DNA from: a virus
Direction: 5' to 3' (one strand)
Virus record (IMG/VR): IMGVR_UViG_3300022200_000081
Coordinates: 1-47,050 of that record
DNA length: 47,050 bases
Each line of letters starts with the position of its first letter. Positions within the stretch are counted from its first letter, which is position 1. Shown here one piece after another: positions 26,936 through 46,655 of the stretch. The translations under genes and the position numbers were made by a program. Under the pieces are notes generated by a model that ran no database searches, was not told where the DNA came from, and saw nothing but the letters and a program-made list of their open reading frames with translations.

Positions 26936-27176
26936 GTTTATCGCTAAACAATTCAATTTTATCCATGCGGTTTGGCCAATAGATGTAATCCTTCTCTGGA
27001 TTCAAACGCAGGTTGTTTAACAGCGGTTGAAACATATTGTACAACTTGTCGATCTTATCGTGTAGGTGTTCAACATCAGTTGATGCTGATTCAGCTGCTG
27101 CTTTAGTTTGTCTTACAACTTCCAGCTCGTCTTCAGTGACAGCTGTAAAGCCAAAGTCAAAGTCGAAATCGCTCAT
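26913..27176 (-). CDS. Conserved small protein between DNA polymerase and uvsX
   Basis: 87 residues starting M-S-D-F-D-F-D-F-G-F-T-A-V. A central amphipathic helix (D-K-I-D-K-L-Y-N-M-F-Q-P-L-L-N-N-L) precedes a conserved P-E-K-D-Y-I-Y-W-P-N-R-M-D-K-I-E block. This family is common next to the polymerase or uvsX genes of aquatic T4-like phages; its function is not known to me. The start overlaps the polymerase B stop as ATGA. The Phe/Asp-rich N-terminus may be a docking tail for a replication protein. Confidence 0.78.
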   Translation of the reverse strand: MSDFDFDFGFTAVTEDELEVVRQTKAAAESASTDVEHLHDKIDKLYNMFQPLLNNLRLNPEKDYIYWPNRMDKIELFSDKLDEVYRS

Positions 27177-28291
27177 GAGAAAAATCCTTCTAGTGTGCTT
27201 CGTTTCTCTGGATTCCACCCAACACTGTTAAGAATAATCTTCAGAGGTTCAAGGAATGCCTTGTCAAACTGTAGATCGTAGTCAATGTAACTTTCTAGAC
27301 CGAAGTCTTTCGGCAAGGTAGAAAGAACACTAAGAACATTTTGCCTAACAGGATTTGGAGTCTGTAGATAACAGAATTTAATTTTCTCGCCATCTTTGAT
27401 ACGCTCATATCGCTTCTCCAACTTATGTTGTTTGAGCAGATGATTATAAAGTAATGCACCTCTGACATGAATCGGTGTTCCCTTTGGAATCTCCAACTCT
27501 TTACTGCCAGTGGTATATTTAGCCAGGTCTGAGATAGAGCGTGGGAACGCTACATCTTCAAATGGAAGTGTTCTAAACTTTTCACGGAACTCGGCAATAT
27601 AATCTTGTACTGTCTGCTCGTCTGAATTTACGATAAGTCCAATTGCTTTCTTCAACGCATCACGGCATACCGCTGGTGTTGATGACTTGACTGTTTCAAT
27701 ACCCATCATCTTCAGCTTCGGTTCCGCATAGCGGACACCTTCGTTGTCATATACATTTAGAATATAACGCTTCTTCGCAGTCCAGATGCCCTTGTTAGCG
27801 ATTGCTTCTCGCTTCATAAACATCTTCTGCGCATAGGCATTCATATTCTTAGCAAGGTCTTCATAACTCTGATCAATAAACGGTTCAATTTTCTGTCGAG
27901 CAACTGAGTCCAAGAATGACACGGTCTTAGCAACTTCTTGTACTCCACCTCTTTTTTCAAAAGACTTGTGTACCAACATGTCAAACCTAATGTACAACGA
28001 GTCTGTGTCTGACGCAATGACATAATCTTCTCCATCTGTTTTCAATAGATTATTTAGATATTCGTTCATCCGTCTCTCAATCCATCGAATAGACAGCTGA
28101 CCTGACAATGTAATGGCTTCTGCCTGACGCACATCAAAGAATCGAAAGTATTGATTCCCGAGTGCGCCATAGGCAGAGTTCAACTGAACCTTCTTTGCCA
28201 ACTGAAGGTTCTTGTACTTTGAGATGTCCTTCTGAAGTTGCACCTTTGCTTGTAGCAACTCCTGATGAGACATTTCGCTAACTGCTTTCAT
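27173..28291 (-). CDS. 43B: DNA polymerase gp43, C-terminal half (fingers base, palm, thumb)
   Basis: 372 residues that carry family B polymerase motif B (Q-L-A-K-K-V-Q-L-N-S-A-Y-G) and motif C (A-S-D-T-D-S-L-Y), followed by thumb sequence. The C-terminus K-R-S-T-L-E-G-F-F-S is at the position of the T4/RB69 sliding-clamp-binding tail. The N-terminal half is a separate gene at 29103-30536. I start it at ATG 28291, which overlaps the upstream stop as TGATG; the longer frame would need a TTG. The two halves together are 849 residues, in the range of complete relatives, and no motif is missing, so they probably assemble into one active enzyme. Confidence 0.93.
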   Translation of the reverse strand: MKAVSEMSHQELLQAKVQLQKDISKYKNLQLAKKVQLNSAYGALGNQYFRFFDVRQAEAITLSGQLSIRWIERRMNEYLNNLLKTDGEDYVIASDTDSLYIRFDMLVHKSFEKRGGVQEVAKTVSFLDSVARQKIEPFIDQSYEDLAKNMNAYAQKMFMKREAIANKGIWTAKKRYILNVYDNEGVRYAEPKLKMMGIETVKSSTPAVCRDALKKAIGLIVNSDEQTVQDYIAEFREKFRTLPFEDVAFPRSISDLAKYTTGSKELEIPKGTPIHVRGALLYNHLLKQHKLEKRYERIKDGEKIKFCYLQTPNPVRQNVLSVLSTLPKDFGLESYIDYDLQFDKAFLEPLKIILNSVGWNPEKRSTLEGFFS

Positions 28292-28557
28292 CAGGTAATC
28301 AGTCCGCTGGTTGCCTGACGCCAAGCACTAACGACTTGATCATTGGTTGGAGTGATCAAAACAACACCCATGAATTCAACGATCTTTGGAGCAGACTCAC
28401 CTGTGACACACACGCCATGAGCAAAACCCATTCCCTGTTCATTGTGTACTAGCATACGAGGATCTTCGAGCGTTACTGCATCCCCATCCTTGTGCTTCAA
28501 CTTACCGATAAACTCGCCAGCCACTGTAAGGACTGTCACAATATCACCAATTTCCAT
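28291..28557 (-). CDS. Sm-like small beta-barrel protein inserted in the split polymerase locus
   Basis: 88 residues, M-E-I-G-D-I-V-T-V onward. The pattern G-E-F-I-G-K-L-K...D-A-V-T-L-E-D-P-R-M-L-V resembles the Sm1 motif of LSm/Hfq folds (G-x-x-x-x-G-x-L ... V-x-L-x-x-P). The C-terminal part (I-V-E-F-M-G-V-V-L-I-T-P-T-N) could supply an Sm2-like strand. Related small proteins occur in T4-like phages without a known role. Its ATG lies inside the end of the oxygenase gene, and its stop overlaps the start of polymerase B as TGATG, so ribosomes can pass straight on to the polymerase half. Confidence 0.72.
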   Translation of the reverse strand: MEIGDIVTVLTVAGEFIGKLKHKDGDAVTLEDPRMLVHNEQGMGFAHGVCVTGESAPKIVEFMGVVLITPTNDQVVSAWRQATSGLIT

Positions 28558-29110
28558 GTTTTTCACCTATTTCCTTAGTTGTGTAATTTATATTCATAGC
28601 AATTCTAAAATCACTGTTAGTTGGTGTTGAACTGCTATGTAGAATATCGCCATCAAATAATACAAGACGATTCGGTTTTGGCGCAACAATTTCTTCCTTT
28701 CCATTGAGAAGAAATGTGGTTACACCATCATTTTTACCATCCCCTAAAATATAAAGCAAAGCTGTTTTGTGTGGGAAAACAAAATCAGTATGCATTGAGT
28801 GTTTTGTGTAAATAGGACGTGGGTGAATTAACCCCAATCGCATCCTTACCAAATAATTATAATTTAAATTATCTTCTTCATAATTTTGTAAGATTTGCGA
28901 AAATATTGCAGAACCCTTTGACACATATTCAATAGCAAATTCGCTATTGTATTGTTGCGCAAAATCTTTTGCTGTAAGAGCGTTGTACATAGAATAATAA
29001 TCATTTGTAGTTGTGGTTGTAAAAAACCAAGGAAACACTGGAGAAGTTACAAAATTTCTTAAATCATCAAACAATTCCACTGGTAATGCGTTATCTATTA
29101 CCCTAATCAT
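28544..29110 (-). CDS. 2OG-Fe(II) oxygenase inserted in the split polymerase locus
   Basis: 188 residues of the prolyl-hydroxylase-like 2OG-Fe(II) fold. The metal triad is H107-T-D109 in S-M-H-T-D-F and distal His158 in F-D-G-D-I-L-H; Arg169 in S-D-F-R-I-A-M-N is the likely 2OG anchor. The substrate is unknown. The ATG overlaps the polymerase A stop by 8 bases, so it is translated directly after the polymerase N-terminal half. It is not a homing endonuclease, the usual kind of gene interrupting gp43 in other T4 relatives. Confidence 0.85.
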   Translation of the reverse strand: MIRVIDNALPVELFDDLRNFVTSPVFPWFFTTTTTNDYYSMYNALTAKDFAQQYNSEFAIEYVSKGSAIFSQILQNYEEDNLNYNYLVRMRLGLIHPRPIYTKHSMHTDFVFPHKTALLYILGDGKNDGVTTFLLNGKEEIVAPKPNRLVLFDGDILHSSSTPTNSDFRIAMNINYTTKEIGEKHGNW

Positions 29111-30536
29111 TTTTCAATCTCCTATTAACTTCTTCCAACAATGCTTGCGACTCAAGCATCTTCTTCTTTGCGATCGCTCGATCATTATACATCTTATCCA
29201 TCATCTCAGGCAAGAAACCCTGCTTGTCACGACGGAAGAAATATCCATTCGCAGCCATACACATATTATCCCTAGAAACCTTTTTGCCGTCAAGTATTTC
29301 GTCAACGGTGATGTGTTCATATTCATCTTCAATGAATGTATCTGGGCTGATGTTGTACTGCATAATTAGGTGAGGATACAGACTGTTCAAGTCAAAAGAC
29401 ATAACCCACTCATGCATGCCCACCTGCGGTTCTTTTACATATGCACCAGCATACTGCGTATCTTTGCTCTTGTGTTCTTTTGGTGGCACTGCGATGTTAC
29501 GATCGTACAACCAATTATGTATAAGCACATCCCACATACGCACCTGAGTGAATACATCACCATAGTTGACCTTGGCATCATATGCGATAGCCAAAGCCAT
29601 GTCGATCAACTTCATCTTATCTTCGAGTTTGTTGACCAGATCCACGTCTTTGATGTTATAGTCAATAAACTTCTCATAGTCCAACTTGTACAGCTGGTGT
29701 AGCGTTTCCACTTCAGAGTAATCGAGTTTGTTCTCGCCCAGCTCAACATGAGCGATATGATCTAGTCGATATGATTCTTGCTGAGAGTATGTAAATTTTT
29801 TGTATAGCTCAAGATAGTCCAGCGTTGTCATACCAATCAACTCAATCTCAATCTGCTTACGATTGAATTGTTCATACTCACGCACATTGATCATACCAAC
29901 AGGTGATAGTTTCTTTGCTTCCTTCTCACTCAGAACACGAGTGATGCGATTATAGAGATACGGAATATCGAATCCCTGCACATTCCAGCCAGTGATAATA
30001 TCAGCATCCCAATGACGCCAGTGGCGCAAGAAGTTGATCAACAACTCACGCTCAGAAGTGCATTGAATGTAGGTTACGTCCTCAGACTTAGCAGTGTAGT
30101 CACCAACGCCGAAGGTGTAGAATGCGCCATCAATACTCGCCGTGATAGCAGTAACTGGCTGAGTGGCTTGCTGCGGATCTGGGAACCCATCCTCAGACCC
30201 AACTTCGATGTCAATGTTAACAACTTTAACAAACTCAGTGTCATAGTCCTGAGTGAAGTTCTGATGTACACAAACATAATCATACAGCGTAGAGCCGAAA
30301 ATTTTAAACCCATCAACATCAGAATAGTTGCGCACGAAGTCACGTGCTTCTTTGATCTCGCCAAATTGTAATGGCTCAAGGAACTGACCATCAATAGCTT
30401 GCCAGTCGGTCATTGTTTTGGCAGGAACCCATAGCGTGGGTTTGTATTCGATGCGATCGGTAAATCGTTCGCCATGATTGTAGCCACGCACGATAACATA
30501 GTTACCACGCATGAAGAAAGAGGTATAGAATTTCAC
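29103..30536 (-). CDS. 43A: DNA polymerase gp43, N-terminal half (exonuclease and palm start)
   Basis: 477 residues. It contains the proofreading exonuclease motifs I (V-N-I-D-I-E-V), II (N-V-Q-G-F-D-I-P-Y-L-Y) and III (Y-N-I-K-D-V-D-L) and polymerase motif A (S-F-D-L-N-S-L-Y-P). It ends just after M-M-D-K-M-Y-N-D-R-A-I-A-K-K-K-M, at the tip of the fingers domain, before motif B. I prefer the GTG at 30536 (V-K-F-Y-T-S) because relatives start there; the frame also has a TTG at 30572. The promoter at 30585-30614 serves it. No intein or split-intein residues are visible at the end. Confidence 0.93.
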   Translation of the reverse strand: MKFYTSFFMRGNYVIVRGYNHGERFTDRIEYKPTLWVPAKTMTDWQAIDGQFLEPLQFGEIKEARDFVRNYSDVDGFKIFGSTLYDYVCVHQNFTQDYDTEFVKVVNIDIEVGSEDGFPDPQQATQPVTAITASIDGAFYTFGVGDYTAKSEDVTYIQCTSERELLINFLRHWRHWDADIITGWNVQGFDIPYLYNRITRVLSEKEAKKLSPVGMINVREYEQFNRKQIEIELIGMTTLDYLELYKKFTYSQQESYRLDHIAHVELGENKLDYSEVETLHQLYKLDYEKFIDYNIKDVDLVNKLEDKMKLIDMALAIAYDAKVNYGDVFTQVRMWDVLIHNWLYDRNIAVPPKEHKSKDTQYAGAYVKEPQVGMHEWVMSFDLNSLYPHLIMQYNISPDTFIEDEYEHITVDEILDGKKVSRDNMCMAANGYFFRRDKQGFLPEMMDKMYNDRAIAKKKMLESQALLEEVNRRLKND

Positions 30537-30584
30537 CAGTGCCGCACCGTGTTCGCAATAATGAAGAAGCAAGTAACAAACATT

Positions 30585-32607: not shown

Positions 32608-33006
32608 TTATCTCTTCTTTCCTAGATTATACTTTGCCACAAGTTCCCATTCATCTTTTTCTTTATAAGGAAGCACCTTTATTTGCGATAGTGGTGCGAC
32701 GGGTTCACTACTTCTTCTAGCGTCAACAAGATCAACAAGACCCCACTCAGCAAGCAGATTGGCAATAGTATTGCGCCTCGCAATATCTTCCTCGGCAAAG
32801 TTAGATGGTTTGCCGTCCAAAGCGAACAGTTCTTTGAAGTGTACAATGTAATATCTCCCTTGTTTATGGAGTATATGACACGACTGATAAATCGTACGAT
32901 TCTTTTTAGACGCTACGCCAATTCTTGTCAATGTCTCACGAATTTTTAGGAAGTCGTCTTCATCACGGAGGACAACCTCAACCATATTTTCTGTCATCTC
33001 TGCCAC
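32608..33006 (-). CDS. regA: RegA translational repressor
   Basis: 132 residues. RegA binds ribosome-binding regions of early mRNAs and shuts off their translation. The sequence follows T4 RegA closely: D-D-F-L-K-I-R-E-T-L-T-R-I-G, Y-Q-S-C-H-I-L-H-K-Q-G-R-Y-Y-I-V-H-F-K-E, A-E-E-D-I-A-R-R-N-T-I-A, and E-W-E-L-V-A-K-Y-N-L-G. It lies in the conserved T4 order 45-44-62-regA and overlaps the end of 62 by 29 bases. Two Met codons near the start (residues 1 and 4) leave the exact N-terminus open. Confidence 0.97.
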   Translation of the reverse strand: MAEMTENMVEVVLRDEDDFLKIRETLTRIGVASKKNRTIYQSCHILHKQGRYYIVHFKELFALDGKPSNFAEEDIARRNTIANLLAEWGLVDLVDARRSSEPVAPLSQIKVLPYKEKDEWELVAKYNLGKKR

Positions 33007-33391
33007 CTTTTTGTAATGTTATTCTAATTGTGGTCAATTGTTCAGGTGTTAGGATGGCGAGTGCTTGGCGTGCCTTAGTATCATTGTAACCAAAGTATTC
33101 TTTAACGATCAACACATCACCATCATTATCTTTCTTCGACCATTTAGCGAATCGCTTCTTAGGTCTCACGATATTTAGTAAAAAATCATACTGTAACAAA
33201 TTGTCCAGATGGTGGCGAGTGTTCATCTCATTGGCAAAGAACACGGTGTCATTATGATACGACAAAGCACGATTAGTTAGGAATGGACTGTATGACTTCT
33301 CTGCAATCTTATCATTGGCAGTACCACGCATCAAATCAGTCTTAGACTGATTGATCGAGTTGGTGAAGTCAAACGGATTCACCTTTGCCAT
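32978..33391 (-). CDS. 62: Clamp loader small subunit gp62
   Basis: 137 residues. With gp44 it loads the gp45 clamp onto DNA. Recognised from context and from conserved blocks: N-P-F-D-F at the N-terminus, F-L-T-N-R-A-L-S-Y-H-N-D-T-V, A-N-E-M-N, Q-Y-D-F-L-L-N-I-V-R-P-K-K-R-F and Y-F-G-Y-N-D-T-K-A. T4 gp62 is longer (187 aa), but relatives in aquatic phages are of this size. Its ATG overlaps the stop of gene 44 by one base, giving translational coupling of the 4:1 loader subunits. Confidence 0.92.
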   Translation of the reverse strand: MAKVNPFDFTNSINQSKTDLMRGTANDKIAEKSYSPFLTNRALSYHNDTVFFANEMNTRHHLDNLLQYDFLLNIVRPKKRFAKWSKKDNDGDVLIVKEYFGYNDTKARQALAILTPEQLTTIRITLQKGGRDDRKYG

Positions 33392-34332
33392 TACTTAAAC
33401 TCCGCATCAACCATCACTTCAGTGAGAAACGCCATTGTGTTGATCTCTTGATCCGCAGCAAACGCAGACTTGTATTGATAGTCTGCCAGCGTAACAACAA
33501 TCTGAGGAATGCTCGCAGGTGTTACAATATCATGCAACGAGTCGTAGAACTTACGAAAGAATGGTGCAACATCACCATCAATGTTCTGACCAACCCATTT
33601 ACGAACGGCAGTAAACTCTTTGTTCTTCATCGCATCAAACAATGTCTTCAGATTTGCGTCTGACTGATTGCTCAGAATACCAGAGTCGATCTTACCAGTG
33701 GCGCTGTAACGCTGCAGTTCGTTCAGGATGCGGCGATTGTCTGGGAAATGTTTAGTGATGACTTCCGCAACAACCTTTGGCTCATACTCAATGTTCTCGA
33801 GTTCTAGAATTTTCTCAACTCGTTTGAAGAACTGTCCAGCCAGCTTTGGCTTGTCGGCGTTTCGCAGTTTAAACTCGACGACTGAGCAACGAGAGTGGAG
33901 CGGAGCAATAATTCTGTTAACAAAATTACAAGTAAGAATGAACCCGCAATTAGCAGAATACTCTTCCATAAAATTTCGAAGAGCAGGTTGAACAGTTTCT
34001 GCATTAAGGTAATCAGCTTCGTCAAGAATAACATACTTTCTTCCCCCAGCCAGTGACATTGAAGATGCAAAGTTTTTGATCTTCGTGCGCAGCGTATCAA
34101 TGAGACGACCTTCATCTGATCCATTGATTACAATATAGTCTGCTCCGATCTGATCCAACATCGCCTTAGCAACAGTTGTCTTACCGATTCCAGCAGAACC
34201 AGTGAGCAGTAGATTAGGGATATTTCCATTGTCAACGAATGTCTGAAATGTTTTCTTTAGATCATCAGGGAGAATGGTATCGTCAATGGTATGTGGACGA
34301 TACTTCTCCACGAACAAAAATTCTTCACGCAT
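33391..34332 (-). CDS. 44: Clamp loader ATPase gp44
   Basis: 313 residues of the AAA+ clamp-loader family. Walker A is G45-S-A-G-I-G-K51-T, Walker B is V-I-L-D-E-A-D-Y-L, and the arginine-finger S-R-C motif is in P-L-H-S-R-C. The N-terminal E-K-Y-R-P is typical. T4 gp44 is 319 aa. It follows a stem-loop terminator and has a GAGG ribosome site. I found no strong promoter directly in front, so expression may depend on leakage through that terminator. Confidence 0.97.
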   Translation of the reverse strand: MREEFLFVEKYRPHTIDDTILPDDLKKTFQTFVDNGNIPNLLLTGSAGIGKTTVAKAMLDQIGADYIVINGSDEGRLIDTLRTKIKNFASSMSLAGGRKYVILDEADYLNAETVQPALRNFMEEYSANCGFILTCNFVNRIIAPLHSRCSVVEFKLRNADKPKLAGQFFKRVEKILELENIEYEPKVVAEVITKHFPDNRRILNELQRYSATGKIDSGILSNQSDANLKTLFDAMKNKEFTAVRKWVGQNIDGDVAPFFRKFYDSLHDIVTPASIPQIVVTLADYQYKSAFAADQEINTMAFLTEVMVDAEFK

Positions 34333-34884: not shown

Positions 34885-35547
34885 TTATGCGGTATATTTA
34901 GAACCAGTTTCAGTTGCAACCCAGTACTCAACGGTGTCGCCCTTGAAGTGAGAGATACCACGCTGAGAGATTGTTACATCATAATCTTCAGCCATAAACT
35001 TCAGATTCTCAACCTTAAACACGAAGTCATAGGTTGATGTTGTGCTAGCACGAAGATCATGAGAGAACTCATTAGAGGTTGGATTCTTAGTATCGGTAGC
35101 GACCAGATGTACATGACCATCCTTACCACGAACCACAACTTCAGGCAGACTCAGCTGATTAGCAGCATTCACTACCTTCTTCAGATCAGCATAGAACAAA
35201 CGGAACAATACTTCCTTGCTCGGCAGTTCCAGATTCTTTTCTGGTGGCTGAGTAACCATTGACGGATCAGTGTAGGTGTAGCGTGAAGAGTTAGTGCCTT
35301 CGCTGATTGTAACAGAAGAAGTACCAAAGTCAAACTCACCATCCTCAAACAGACTCGCAAGACCGAGGAACTGATTCAGTTCATAGATCGCAAAGGTCTG
35401 CGGGAAAGATTCATCAACAACAGCCTGAGCCAGAATATTCTTCTGCTCAGATACAGTGCGCAGTACATTACCTGCCTTCACTGAGATCGACGGATTAATC
35501 GTCGAAAAGTTCTTCAAAATATCAAACGTCTTATCACTGATTTTCAT
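34885..35547 (-). CDS. 45: Sliding clamp gp45
   Basis: 220 residues. It forms a trimeric ring that tethers the polymerase and, in T4, activates late promoters. Matches to T4-like clamps include the N-terminal M-K-I-S-D-K-T-F-D-I-L-K-N-F-S-T-I-N and K-A-G-N-V-L-R-T; also I-Y-E-L-N-Q-F-L, T-Y-T-D-P-S-M-V and the closing S-H-F-K-G-D-T-V-E-Y-W-V-A. The gene overlaps the DUF3310-like gene by 14 bases. It is the probable docking partner for the C-terminal peptides of polymerase B, the TET/JBP-like enzyme and the GT-B glycosyltransferase. Confidence 0.97.
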   Translation of the reverse strand: MKISDKTFDILKNFSTINPSISVKAGNVLRTVSEQKNILAQAVVDESFPQTFAIYELNQFLGLASLFEDGEFDFGTSSVTISEGTNSSRYTYTDPSMVTQPPEKNLELPSKEVLFRLFYADLKKVVNAANQLSLPEVVVRGKDGHVHLVATDTKNPTSNEFSHDLRASTTSTYDFVFKVENLKFMAEDYDVTISQRGISHFKGDTVEYWVATETGSKYTA

Positions 35548-42085: not shown

Positions 42086-43465
42086 TCAGGCAGCTGCTTC
42101 CTTGCGCATTTGAAGGATGTAGCGGTACTCATCCAGAGTGGTCGTACCCATGTTGACATTATGAGTCTTACGAATAATCGCACCGTCCTCAATCTGCCCA
42201 CCATGCGCCCACGCTGTATCGTGACCGAAGATAGCGTCGTCAATACTGAGCGGTTCACCGTCAATAGCGCAACGGAAACCCTGCTTCGCCAGCATCTCAA
42301 ACTTCTGATCTTTGCTGATTGTGCGACGCTCATCACGATACATCACGCAATCTTCAATGTCCATGTTATTGAGATACAACTTAGCAACCTCATGCTGCTC
42401 TGCTGGATTGGCGAAGTTCTTGATAGCGGTACGAGCGAACTTCTTTACAATCTCGGTCTTGGATTTCAGCGTATTGCGATCACCAGTTGTAAAATGACGA
42501 ACTTCAGTATCATACTTGTTTTTATCCAAACCAGTTAGTTCGGTGTGAGCCATAAAGAACTGCTCAGCGAAGATATCGTGGTCGGTGATAGAAAACACCT
42601 TGTTGCGTTCATACAACTCAAACCAGACTGCTTGAAACGCTGCAAACACATCAGCATTGAGTTTCTTAGTAGAACCCATCGCCTTTACAGTTTCAAGTGC
42701 ATCAGTTAGGAAGTTGTCAACGGTCTTACAAGTTTCCTTGCTGATCTCTGGTTGGTCAGTTTCAACCAGATTCTCAATTGCTTGAAGACCTGCATCTACA
42801 TTACCTTTACCGAGAGTTTTGACGAAGGCGATACCAACATACTCGTCCCACTTGCGACGTGGGTTGATGTCGGTGTTCCAGTGCATTGGCTTCATTGATC
42901 CATCTTTCTTGGTTTGAATCTCAAAGATCGGATGAATGTCATTGTAGTCATACTCTTTGTAAGACTTAACACGCTCACGAATAGCACGTGCAGTCTTAGA
43001 AACATCGTTAGCCATAATCATCTCGATCTGATTCACAGGCGTTACGGTGTTTAGACGACGAAAGATCTCGGTTGCTTGTACATCGTTACAAGTATAGACT
43101 GAGAATGACAACTCAGTTTCTTCAAGTGCAACCTTTTCTTCCTCACTAAGCTGGCGATAGTTCTTGCCGTTGACAGCGAAACGACCAGCCTGGAAGTCAC
43201 GCATTGCACGGATACGATTACCACCATCAAGTACCAACCACTTGACGCCAGGATAGATCTCCTGATTCTTCTCGTCGTTTTCAATGTTACGCACGGTGAT
43301 CGTACCAACAGAGAAACCACGAAGCAGAGAATCAATGATGCCCTGTGCTTTACTTGGACCAGATTGTACAGGAGGACGCTGACCGATAGGATCAGGATTG
43401 ATGACACCTGCGTGGGTGTCCATAACTACATTGCGAACGGATGCGAATTGAATTTCGTAATTCAT
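42086..43465 (-). CDS. DUF262-HNH protein (GmrSD-like)
   Basis: 459 residues. The N-terminal DUF262/ParB-like domain has the L-D80-G-G-N-R84-I-R-A box, preceded by I-D-S-L-L-R-G-F-S-V-G-T-I. The C-terminal 60 residues are HNH-like: F-R-C-A-I-D-G, G-H415-D-T-A-W-A-H421-G-G, and N-V-N438-M-G. DUF262-HNH fusions are known from the type IV restriction enzyme GmrSD, which cuts glucosylated hydroxymethylcytosine DNA. Here it lies in a phage next to predicted base-modifying enzymes. It could remove other modified phages or act on host DNA, or it could be a homing-like nuclease. A strong promoter and a hairpin-rich leader suggest tight control. Confidence 0.85.
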   Translation of the reverse strand: MNYEIQFASVRNVVMDTHAGVINPDPIGQRPPVQSGPSKAQGIIDSLLRGFSVGTITVRNIENDEKNQEIYPGVKWLVLDGGNRIRAMRDFQAGRFAVNGKNYRQLSEEEKVALEETELSFSVYTCNDVQATEIFRRLNTVTPVNQIEMIMANDVSKTARAIRERVKSYKEYDYNDIHPIFEIQTKKDGSMKPMHWNTDINPRRKWDEYVGIAFVKTLGKGNVDAGLQAIENLVETDQPEISKETCKTVDNFLTDALETVKAMGSTKKLNADVFAAFQAVWFELYERNKVFSITDHDIFAEQFFMAHTELTGLDKNKYDTEVRHFTTGDRNTLKSKTEIVKKFARTAIKNFANPAEQHEVAKLYLNNMDIEDCVMYRDERRTISKDQKFEMLAKQGFRCAIDGEPLSIDDAIFGHDTAWAHGGQIEDGAIIRKTHNVNMGTTTLDEYRYILQMRKEAAA

Positions 43466-43651: not shown

Positions 43652-44995
43652 TTAGCCGAAAAAATCCTCAAGTGTAGCGACTGGTGGGGGATCAAAATGA
43701 GCCACCCACATCTCTTCTGCCGCTCTTTCAAACGCTGGATCAGCAAAACGTGCCGTCACAGTACCATATACACCAGCGTCTTTGCCCTCTGCCAGATCAA
43801 TATAGTCCTGCGCTACGACCTTGCGATCAAACTTCTTGATCAACTCGAAGTTGTTACGAGCAATCTTCTCATATACTTCCTTCGGAATGTCCAAAAACTT
43901 ATTGATCATGCTGCCGTACTGCTTTGGCGTGTAGTCATACTTCAACATCAGATAGTTTTCGTTTGGTTTAAACAGTGAACCATAACCATCTTCGTTTGGA
44001 GCGATACCAAGATTAACAGCGATTGGCACTGTACCAGTCTTCATCGCATCTACGACTGTACGATTAAAGTGTTCGCCATATGTCTTAGACCATGAAGGAT
44101 CGATCAGGAACAATGACTCACGCAAAATTTCGTCACGCTTGGTTTCTGTAATGAATCCAATGTAATCCATACCAGCATCAGTCGCATTATCCCATATTCT
44201 CTTCCCCAGACGCTCTGTAGACGCATCTGGATCGGTTTCCTTTGTACAGTAATACTCTGGCTTACATTTGTCGACGGAGGTCATGTAGTTCCTCTCAATG
44301 CCGTCTCCAGCGACGATTACTTTACAATCATTGAGATAAGGAACAGCTGCTACCAGATTATCTACACGCTTCCAACGCTTGAAGGTTTGCGGTGATAGGA
44401 TTTGACGCTTGCGATTCTCGAAGTTGATCTCTGGTGCTTCACCGATCTCTTGAGGATTAAGAATCATAGCACGTGGCATATCCATAACTGCTGCTGAGTC
44501 GAACGCACTCACGTGTACGCATGCTACACCTGCGAGTTTATCTTTGAAACGATACACCCATGGATAGAGTTTGCGTAGATTGCCGTCATGCACGATCATG
44601 ACTTGTTTAACAGTCACATCTTCGATCATTGGCAACCAGTCAGTGTTGCTTTCGCTGCTTTTGTTCTTGAAGCCAAAGATAGATTCCCAGATGATCAGAT
44701 CATGATCGTTTGCCATCTTAACAAAGTCAGCGATGCTTTCTTTGTTAAGGAACGAATAATAGTCAGTGATCCAACCCTTGCCCTGATGAACAGGCAATCT
44801 TGTACCAGCACCCAACTCATAACCATCTTCAAGATCCGTAGGAATCTCAACCTTTTTAGGTTTCTGCGCAGTTGGTTTGAGGAAAGCGAATGTCACCTCA
44901 TGACCTAGATCCTTAAGACCTGCGATCAACTGCTCAGTGTGATTAATAATTCCGCCAAAGTTGCTGAACTGGTGTACTGGTACAAGTATCTTCAT
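43652..44995 (-). CDS. GT-B glycosyltransferase with clamp-binding-like tail
   Basis: 447 residues with a GT-B shape. The N-terminal lobe opens M-K-I-L-V-P-V-H-Q-F-S-N-F-G-G-I-I-N-H with the G-G-x-x-x-H start of GT4-like enzymes. The C-terminal lobe has Y-I-G-F-I-T-E-T-K-R-D-E-I-L-R-E-S, then P-S-W-S-K-T-Y-G-E-H-F-N-R-T-V-V-D-A-M-K-T-G, the E-x7-E-like donor site region. The tail V-A-T-L-E-D-F-F-G closely matches the polymerase B tail. The ATG overlaps the TET/JBP-like stop by one base, so the two are made together. A DNA-base acceptor is likely from this context but not proven. Confidence 0.88.
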   Translation of the reverse strand: MKILVPVHQFSNFGGIINHTEQLIAGLKDLGHEVTFAFLKPTAQKPKKVEIPTDLEDGYELGAGTRLPVHQGKGWITDYYSFLNKESIADFVKMANDHDLIIWESIFGFKNKSSESNTDWLPMIEDVTVKQVMIVHDGNLRKLYPWVYRFKDKLAGVACVHVSAFDSAAVMDMPRAMILNPQEIGEAPEINFENRKRQILSPQTFKRWKRVDNLVAAVPYLNDCKVIVAGDGIERNYMTSVDKCKPEYYCTKETDPDASTERLGKRIWDNATDAGMDYIGFITETKRDEILRESLFLIDPSWSKTYGEHFNRTVVDAMKTGTVPIAVNLGIAPNEDGYGSLFKPNENYLMLKYDYTPKQYGSMINKFLDIPKEVYEKIARNNFELIKKFDRKVVAQDYIDLAEGKDAGVYGTVTARFADPAFERAAEEMWVAHFDPPPVATLEDFFG

Positions 44996-46428
44996 TATGA
45001 AAAGAACCCTTCAAGTGTAGATTTAACTTCCAATGCTTCTGGATGGTATTGTCTAAGTGTATCCTCTCCCATCTTAGAAGTCAAGTAGTCATACCATTCT
45101 TGCTCAGACCACATACCAGGGGACACACCATTCCAGTATTCCTTCCACAACGGATGCTCTTTGTTTAGTCGGCGATCATCAACGAACTGACGACGAGTCA
45201 TTTCATAATCCCAAGAACCAAGACCATCCATATCTTCACGGAAGTAATACACCAGTGACATACGAAGCATCTTATCTTCGCCTGAGTCTGGTGGCAGAAT
45301 TGGTGTGTTGCCGTGAATCACTCTCATATTATCAATCAAAAGCAAATCACCAGGACGTACATTCACAGCAACACGAACTTCAGGTGCTACAAGATAACCA
45401 CCCTTCCAATCCATACCATCACGTGTAACAACGGTGAGGTTTGAGAACCCAGCGTTGAGTGAACCAGCATCACGATGGCATGCCATACGAGCATTGCGAT
45501 CTTTCGTGGTTGTGTTCACAGTAATGGTCGTGAAGGTGGTATCTTCACCAATCAAAAACTTATTGTCCAGTCGGTCAGCAAACTGCTGTTGGAATCCATG
45601 ACGCTGCGGGAGCAAACGAGCAAACTCTTTCTCCAACTTACGAGCAAACGGATAGGACTTCTCAAACTTCTCACGGTTGTGATCCACATAAGATGTAGCA
45701 CGACCATAAGGAATACGAGGATAACGACCGTAGAAACCTGCGATACCAGACCAAAGCGGAGAAGCATAAGATGTACCTGAGATAAACTTGGTACGAATCA
45801 TCTTCGCATAGTCTTGCGCTTCATGTACTGGCATACCAAGCATCTTCTCGATAGCGGCAGGCATAAAGTTGGTGTAATAACCAAACTCATCTTCAATCTT
45901 AGAGCGCAACCATACCTCACCACGTGTTTCATACTTGGCAGTTTCGTGCTTCTTCTTAATTGACTCAAGCTGATCACCACCAGTAATATCCTGCGGTTGA
46001 CCTGCTTCAAAGTATTCAAGGATGTCAAGCTGATAAGGTGTTACCCAATCACGCTTGTTGTTTTGTTCGGCACGTGGACCAGCTGCCATACCACGATTGT
46101 TTGATTCAACGGCAGCTTCCCAAAGACCTTCCATAGCACCACGCTGTTCATCTTCAGTGAACACATTCTTACGGAACTTAAACGCTACACGATCTTCGCC
46201 CATGCAAGACAAACACTCATGATCGCAGGTTGCCTGATCTACCATGTCACATACAGGTGGCAAGTACAAATCTGCATCGCCATCAATTAGAATATCATAA
46301 TAAGAGTCATCGACATACTTACCGAGCAGTTCTTCCTGAGGAATTACAAACTCTGCAATATAAACGTCTTGACCTTCATCGCCAACATACTTCTGCCAGC
46401 GATTGCCATTAATTTCAATAATTTCCAT
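44995..46428 (-). CDS. TET/JBP-like 2OG oxygenase, predicted DNA base hydroxylase
   Basis: 477 residues. The 2OG/Fe(II) core near the C-terminus reads C-H318-R-D320-A-G, then W-K-G-G-Y-L-V-A-P, V-N-V-R-P-G-D-L-L-L-I-D, V-I-H372-G-N-T-P and L-R389-M-S-L-V-Y, which I recognise as the TET/JBP type that oxidises 5-methylcytosine or thymine. The N-terminal third has a possible zinc cluster (C60, C68, H70, C72, C75). The last residues are K-S-T-L-E-G-F-F-S, identical to the DNA polymerase B tail. It is coupled to the glycosyltransferase gene, as in base-J-like pathways (hydroxylate, then glycosylate). The ATG at 46428 has GGAG 8 bases upstream; the frame opens earlier at a poorer start. Confidence 0.85.
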   Translation of the reverse strand: MEIIEINGNRWQKYVGDEGQDVYIAEFVIPQEELLGKYVDDSYYDILIDGDADLYLPPVCDMVDQATCDHECLSCMGEDRVAFKFRKNVFTEDEQRGAMEGLWEAAVESNNRGMAAGPRAEQNNKRDWVTPYQLDILEYFEAGQPQDITGGDQLESIKKKHETAKYETRGEVWLRSKIEDEFGYYTNFMPAAIEKMLGMPVHEAQDYAKMIRTKFISGTSYASPLWSGIAGFYGRYPRIPYGRATSYVDHNREKFEKSYPFARKLEKEFARLLPQRHGFQQQFADRLDNKFLIGEDTTFTTITVNTTTKDRNARMACHRDAGSLNAGFSNLTVVTRDGMDWKGGYLVAPEVRVAVNVRPGDLLLIDNMRVIHGNTPILPPDSGEDKMLRMSLVYYFREDMDGLGSWDYEMTRRQFVDDRRLNKEHPLWKEYWNGVSPGMWSEQEWYDYLTSKMGEDTLRQYHPEALEVKSTLEGFFS

Positions 46429-46466: not shown

Positions 46467-46655
46467 CTACCAATCACCATTATCAAGTATAATGCGAATG
46501 TTGACAAATAGCAACTGAAAGAACATTTGGTTCATCTTCGGATTAAAGTCATCCTCTCTAATGACTTCCCACGAGAAACGCCAGTGGAAAGGATTTACAA
46601 CTATTGTAACCCAAATCCCTGAATAACGCAACCATTTATAGATCGTTCTGATCAT
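46467..46655 (-). CDS. Small conserved protein, unknown function
   Basis: 62 residues: I-R-T-I-Y-K-W-L-R-Y-S-G-I-W-V-T-I-V-V-N-P-F-H-W-R-F-S-W. Aromatic-rich, ending D-N-G-D-W. It resembles short conserved proteins of cyanophage-like T4 relatives with the same N-P-F-H-W box; the role is unknown to me. The hydrophobic W/I/V segment may associate with membrane. Coupled to the upstream gene by ATGA. The gap 46429-46466 contains CTAAATAC, a possible late-promoter variant for the TET/JBP-like gene. Confidence 0.75.
   Translation of the reverse strand: MIRTIYKWLRYSGIWVTIVVNPFHWRFSWEVIREDDFNPKMNQMFFQLLFVNIRIILDNGDW

Follow-up and report, generated by a model that had tools for sequence, protein, structure and literature searches.

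Base-modifying enzymes of a T4-like phage end in the peptide of its DNA polymerase: candidate clamp-tethered hypermodification

Introduction

Why should two enzymes predicted to modify DNA bases end in the same peptide as the DNA polymerase of their phage? The question is raised by the IMG/VR record IMGVR_UViG_3300022200_000081, analysed here over its full 47,050 bases (hereafter the window), in which profile searches identify a T4-like phage with homologues of UvsX, a DnaB-like helicase, gp43, regA, gp62, gp44, and gp45. The gp43-type DNA polymerase B (PolB), a TET/JBP-type oxygenase, and a GT-B glycosyltransferase of this phage share a C-terminal tail, which we propose to be a sliding-clamp-binding peptide that would dock all three proteins on the phage gp45 trimer. 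Judged from sequence comparison, the probability that the tailed modification enzymes dock on the clamp is roughly 0.82. More broadly, it appears fairly probable that hypermodification in gp45-bearing phages runs as a clamp-borne assembly line, for which unrelated oxygenases, kinases, amino-acid transferases, glycosyltransferases, and acetyltransferases have each acquired a polymerase-type tail, with the tails switching together with clamp and polymerase and the client list readable from C-termini.

Tails that bind the clamp are already known, as is one DNA glycosyltransferase bound to it, T4 alpha-glucosyltransferase (alpha-GT). Beyond this enzyme, our literature search returned no clamp motif on a phage modification enzyme, and it returned neither a clamp tail common to a polymerase and non-homologous hypermodification enzymes nor lineage switching of such a tail. 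If correct, the proposal would explain how modification can be quick, genome-wide, and limited to the phage's own DNA, would bring base modification into the range of tasks performed at the replication clamp, and would build several DNA-modification pathways into the replication machine. The old observation on T4 alpha-GT and gp45 would become part of a general rule, and the long-standing question of whether hypermodification is coupled to replication would come down to testing a few residues at the C-terminus. Furthermore, the tails would offer a sequence-only route to new modification enzymes, unnamed ones included.

Three unrelated proteins with one tail

Both the polymerase and the oxygenase end in STLEGFFS and the glycosyltransferase in ATLEDFFG, as a first-pass annotation of this DNA had read, with each tail encoded on the minus strand, in frame, and closed by a genuine stop codon. 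The polymerase tail reported there is present, although its gene lies outside the segment to which that annotation was assigned and is split into two open reading frames (ORFs) separated by two small genes, a division the annotation did not mention; the C-terminal piece bears the tail. No further plausible gene of the window carries an STLEGFFS-type tail. Polymerase and oxygenase agree in 8/8 residues of the tail, yet their synonymous codons differ (AGCACACTAGAAGGATTTTTC vs TCTACACTTGAAGGGTTCTTT), and a recent DNA duplication is therefore rejected as the source of the shared peptide; it is protein sequence, not DNA, that the two tails share.

To assess conservation, IMG/VR relatives were translated to stop codons and distinct C-termini counted. 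The tail is present on 43/48 oxygenases, 36/37 glycosyltransferases, and 66/71 polymerases, compared with 13/1475 other proteins (Fisher P about 3e-66 for oxygenases against other proteins). Across 2134 predicted proteins, drawn from the first 182 loci and the window, C-terminal occurrences of the pattern number 259, where its internal density predicts about 12, which, together with counts over whole records, rejects a chance match. In one such record (G019, 197 kb, 243 genes) the strict tail is found only on polymerase, oxygenase, and glycosyltransferase, and in another (G004, 151 kb, 195 genes) on polymerase, oxygenase, a TAGT (PF20691), and one ORF of 88 amino acids (aa). The oxygenase and glycosyltransferase relatives are mostly 41–100% identical to the window proteins (one glycosyltransferase relative, 35%), and nearly all end in [ST]xL[ED]x[FLM]F followed by 0–1 residues, with the linker directly before the tail varying in sequence and, in some relatives, in length.

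Comparison with clamp clients of T4

T4 gp43 ends in KASLDFLFG and T4 gp55 in SPSLDFLYEAND (motif SLDFLYEAND), and a common hydrophobic patch on gp45 accepts the sliding-clamp-binding motifs of four T4 proteins, the polymerase, ligase, gp33, and gp55 (PMC7892883). As the motif at the same position in gp43 and gp55 binds gp45, this protein is the best candidate partner for the tails described here, which fit the hydrophobic motif [ST]L[DE]x[FL][FY], lie at the C-terminus or close to it, and are preceded by a flexible linker. The window encodes the clamp together with both loader subunits, gp44 and gp62, and its gp45 matches the solved clamps of T4 (1czd, phmmer E 2e-17) and RB69 (1b77, E 1e-15). 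In the AlphaFold2 (AF2) models of oxygenase and glycosyltransferase the tail is a poorly predicted end to an otherwise confidently modelled fold, with confidence dropping to 53 and 61 respectively in the last block, as expected of a docking peptide.

The T4 and RB69 clients gp43, gp55, gp33, and DNA ligase likewise finish, or nearly finish, in a short hydrophobic-acidic peptide that follows a linker. However, these clients serve replication, repair, and transcription, whereas among the tailed proteins here are also base-modifying enzymes with several unrelated folds, and the type of peptide varies by phage lineage. T4 alpha-GT binds gp45 (Sommer 2004), with pull-down confirmation given in PMC13216743, and it shares the GT-B fold and the proposed clamp binding with the window glycosyltransferase, but has no such C-terminal tail. 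Tethering was not known for any oxygenase or other enzyme of such a pathway, unlike the set proposed here.

Since sequence by itself cannot name a partner, the tail might instead bind another replisome protein, such as SSB or the helicase/primase. We consider this very improbable, as T4 motifs of this kind in gp43, gp55, gp33, and ligase bind gp45, and as the tails track gp45 in named phages, although the gp45-free ones also lack PolB.

Phages with and without gp45

In the named phages C48C1, DLP6, and Cr30, which bear gp45, the tail is found on the oxygenase and/or the TAGT, with Cr30 carrying it only on a TAGT-like protein (DLSKLF; polymerase DLSSLFD). In S-CBWM1, Acadian, Altadena, HTVC112P, P12024L, and Zemanar, in which no gp45 was detected, the TET, TAGT, and ADDT enzymes are all without the tail; these phages are more distant relatives. 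One tailless relative of the GT-B enzyme (L094) lies in a record where neither PolB nor gp45 was found, although absence from a metagenomic fragment is weak evidence. The known TET/JBP and TAGT systems of actinophages and small marine phages (PF12851, PF20691) also place a TET-type oxygenase beside a glycosyltransferase, as in the window, but have neither tail nor gp45, and the glycosyltransferase of the window is of GT-B type rather than a TAGT. The TET-type oxygenase relatives DLP6 AAY80_030, Cr30 OZ74_gp129, and S-CBWM1 HOU61_gp009 are publicly annotated as 'SNF2 DNA repair protein'.

Concerted tail change in ViI-like phages

In ViI-like phages hypermodified thymidine is known from experiment, in ViI as 5-NeOmdU (PMC6449724). 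The Vi01 polymerase ends in VNLLSMMGKKG, the type seen in the enterobacterial phages, with similar tails on the amino-acid:DNA transferase ADDT (VNLMSLLKR) and on two 5-hydroxymethyldeoxyuridine (5-hmdU) DNA kinases, HMUD2 (VSLLGLMRKA) and HMUDK (VNLLDRLKKPE); the tails of May, 2050H1, and Ds23CZ are similar, and those of Bue1 looser. In Vibrio phage 1.255.O, K444, and D493 the polymerase ends in KKARKLW, ADDT in KTRKLW, and the kinases in KTK[KR]LW and [VS]TKRLW (KTKKLW and VTKRLW in K444). Pseudomonas phage Cygsa01 has SVMDFFS, NDLMGFFQ, NVFDLF, and SVLDLF on its polymerase and modification enzymes. All of these ViI-like phages encode gp45. The enzymes of ViI-like thymidine hypermodification (ADDT, HMUDK, HMUD2) thus have the tail of their own phage's polymerase, as in the window, but hydroxymethylation occurs at the nucleotide level (PF00303 in Vi01) and no oxygenase is involved.

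Tail similarity within genomes exceeds permutation in both the T4 type (P 0.0026) and the ViI type (P 0.002) with phylogeny not removed, and covariation over only three representatives gives P 0.17. Because the permutation tests ignore phylogeny, the joint switch of four non-homologous proteins is the stronger argument, and this concerted change is, among the sequence comparisons, the strongest evidence for one common docking partner. In K444, [KR]LW ends (0.06 expected over 1480 frames) occur on those four proteins, one small zinc-ribbon-like protein (frame ending 58528, tail KTRKLW), and one 50-aa ORF. An apparent Vi01 relative of the zinc-ribbon-like protein, Vi01_049c (L411 30355-30567; phrog_4789), ends in VNLLSLMRK, and from its tail the small protein is probably an unrecognised clamp client.

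These comparisons also bear on the possibility that the tail is a structural or stability element of each family, its likeness coincidental or due to a common degradation signal. Hydrophobic C-terminal peptides may serve as degrons, and ADDT tails are kept in GLExF form, but homologues in gp45-free phages lack the tail, the confidently modelled folds stop short of the tails, and the peptide changes in step with that of the polymerase, making this explanation highly improbable.

Further tailed enzymes

The tail extends to other modification families. A scan of the oxygenase neighbours places it on 69/78 closed C-termini of TAGT, and 33/79 ADDT proteins (PF18724) have the strict tail, with a variant resembling GLExF[FMI] on most others. 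Among GNAT acetyltransferases the ends are TLEAFF, PSLEEWF, and NTLEGFF, a D12 adenine methylase (L101) ends in NLDLFWD, and an ORF beside the C48C1 polymerase, which by unscanned sequence resembles a D12-type methylase, ends in STLDAFFG. Among 85 oxygenase loci, 57 have a GT-B glycosyltransferase nearby, 9 a TAGT, 5 an ADDT, and 14 none of these; loci without GT-B often have a TAGT or ADDT with the tail in its place beside the oxygenase.

In the T4-type ADDT loci (L004-L010, L306, L323, L330, L356, L357), genes for ADDT, TET oxygenase, glutamine amidotransferase, an amidoligase-like protein, and GNAT are clustered. The 5-hmdU DNA kinases (PF18723/PF18747) are absent from the two large T4-type TET/ADDT records checked (G049, G050). 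Three small proteins also end in such peptides: a 189-aa protein downstream of a TAGT (L022 8717-9286, NSLESML) with very weak matches to AID/APOBEC-type deaminases (E about 0.02); a 189-aa protein found in three loci (L088 10844-11413, RSTLDHMFV), by eye possibly a nuclease, and if so possibly a clamp-tethered one; and a 103-aa protein adjoining the polymerase (L153 1095-1406, ITLDKFFE), which has relatives in two more loci and no family match.

Predicted chemistry of the pathway

The oxygenase is, by profile, active-site residues, and modelled fold, a TET/JBP enzyme. It scores 42.6 bits against PF12851 (gathering score 34.9), with H318, D320, and H372 of the HxD...H iron triad and R389, the 2-oxoglutarate (2OG) arginine, invariant in 31 sequences, and DNA-bound TET enzymes are its closest structural matches in Foldseek (NgTET1, E 3.9e-10, followed by CcTet, TET2, and CMD1). 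An alternative TTG start at 46473 may extend it to 492 aa.

The glycosyltransferase matches PF00534 (Glycos_transf_1) at 33.8 bits (threshold 26.4), and its AF2 model, with a confidence (pLDDT) of 88, retrieves GT4 enzymes in Foldseek along with T4 alpha-GT (1y6f, TMq 0.59). Assignment to TAGT was rejected for want of a profile match to PF20691, as was assignment to the T4 alpha-GT family (PF11440), which gave no match in the Pfam scan, the likeness being one of fold alone. No GT-B homologue was found among 50,697 sequenced phage records, and T4 and ViI-like isolates were therefore used for comparison.

That the glycosyltransferase acts on DNA, as had been proposed from its tail, is supported by the modelled similarity to T4 alpha-GT and by phages lacking this enzyme, which often have a TAGT of the same tail, a family linked with phage TET enzymes, beside the oxygenase. 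Among 18 large metagenomic records bearing TET, TAGT, or ADDT, neither a C5-methyltransferase (PF00145) nor a dCMP/dUMP hydroxymethylase of thymidylate-synthase type (PF00303) was found, a result limited by fragmentary records and by other methyltransferase families; PF00303 is present in T4, Vi01, and Cr30. With neither family found, the simplest course in these phages would be for the oxygenase to form the hydroxymethyl group directly in DNA, on thymine or on 5-methylcytosine (5mC) supplied otherwise.

The lack of PF00145 and PF00303 in large TET-bearing records may also be taken to suggest that both enzymes are tethered but act on something other than DNA bases, for example a replication protein, and in fold the GT-B enzyme best matches GT4 enzymes acting on lipids and sugars. 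This is improbable, given that the oxygenase matches TET-family DNA dioxygenases in fold and active site, that TAGT and ADDT can stand in for the partner genes, and that T4 alpha-GT with DNA is among the top fold matches of the glycosyltransferase.

Proposed mechanism

The gp45 ring has three equivalent sites, and could thus carry modification enzymes along DNA either beside the polymerase or following it. In the proposed sequence, gp45 would be loaded on phage DNA, the tethered oxygenase would hydroxylate a 5-methylpyrimidine (thymine, or 5mC if some enzyme supplies it), and the tethered glycosyltransferase would cap the resulting hydroxymethyl group. Such tethering would make the enzymes processive and restrict their chemistry to phage DNA that has just been replicated. 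We infer from sequence the identity of gp45 as partner, the order of steps, and the coupling to replication.

Docking could, however, use clamps parked on replicated DNA to scan or mark phage DNA rather than clamps at the moving fork. The late T4 RNA polymerase tracks with gp45 through the gp55 and gp33 tails (PMC7892883), the gp55 of G004 ends in DSDLTEFLEE, and the alpha-GT/gp45 interaction does not alone set the glucosylation pattern of T4 (PMC13216743). Against this, the tails are closest to that of the polymerase, residue for residue in the window oxygenase and the G004 TAGT, which fits the same ring site at the fork. We regard parked clamps as possible but rather unlikely, an estimate which overlaps with that for docking since both include the docking step, and the moving fork as no better than moderately favoured. 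The first-pass annotation had proposed that hydroxylation and glycosylation follow the fork by riding gp45; the docking part of that proposal is strongly supported, by comparison, through the tail position shared with T4 gp43 and gp55, the non-homology of the enzymes, the tailless homologues of gp45-free phages, and the concerted change with the polymerase.

Several observations weigh against clamp docking by these tails, in addition to the phylogeny-blind permutations. T4 alpha-GT ends in FKEQFDIITK, without the tail, though it binds gp45, its interaction with gp45 has been judged not the main cause of the predominance of alpha-glucosylation in T4, and T4 beta-GT does not bind gp45 (PMC13216743), such that tethering is dispensable for DNA glucosylation. 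The oxygenase tail is lost in some tail-using phages (L067 and L080, ALDI/ATLDI; Cr30, GATLF), and three tailed or near-tailed TAGTs (L287, L290, L292) lie in records, possibly fragments, where no gp45 was found. In the gp45-free named phages no PolB of this family is detectable either, and the window itself is a metagenomic fragment. In VPALA (L380), ADDT and HMUDK end in STAKRLW, the HMUD2 kinase stops at NPLA, and the polymerase ends in ETNAKR, so that the full concerted change expected beforehand is not seen there.

Genes of the window

The features of the window are given in Table 1. The glycosyltransferase and oxygenase genes share 1 nt, which belongs to the stop codon of the oxygenase.

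Table 1. Positions of the tailed enzymes, clamp, and clamp loader in the window
Feature	Position	Strand	Evidence
GT-B (GT4-like) glycosyltransferase, 447 aa	43652..44995	-	PF00534 E 3e-8; AF2/Foldseek
Glycosyltransferase tail ATLEDFFG (PPVATLEDFFG, then stop)	43655..43678	-	kept in 36/37 distinct relatives
TET/JBP-type 2OG-Fe(II) DNA oxygenase, 477 aa from ATG	44995..46428	-	PF12851 E 4.7e-11, active-site residues, Foldseek
Oxygenase tail STLEGFFS (EVKSTLEGFFS, then stop)	44998..45021	-	kept in 43/48 distinct relatives
DNA polymerase B, C-terminal half (gp43 type)	27173..28324	-	phrog_262 positions 491-851, E 4e-153
Polymerase tail STLEGFFS (EKRSTLEGFFS, then stop)	27176..27199	-	position equals T4 gp43 KASLDFLFG
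DNA polymerase B, N-terminal half (exonuclease and start of palm)	29103..30572	-	phrog_262 positions 8-494, E 9e-172
gp45 sliding clamp, predicted tail partner	34885..35547	-	phrog_223 E 3.6e-73
gp44 clamp loader subunit	33391..34332	-	phrog_168 E 1e-121
gp62 clamp loader subunit	32978..33391	-	phrog_225 E 5e-42

Between the polymerase halves lie ORFs for a 188-aa protein of phrog_274 (named 'DNA endonuclease V' there), with weak matches to 2OG-Fe oxygenases, and for a 91-aa DUF6948-like protein; a split polymerase is also found in a related record (G001).

Adjoining the modification genes, a 459-aa protein (42086-43465) has a weak GmrSD_N/DUF262-type N-terminus, below the cut-off, and a weak HNH match, with the same gene order repeated in a second locus (L003). 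GmrSD-type enzymes cleave glucosylated DNA, which makes such a protein curious in a phage carrying enzymes of the DNA-glycosylation type.

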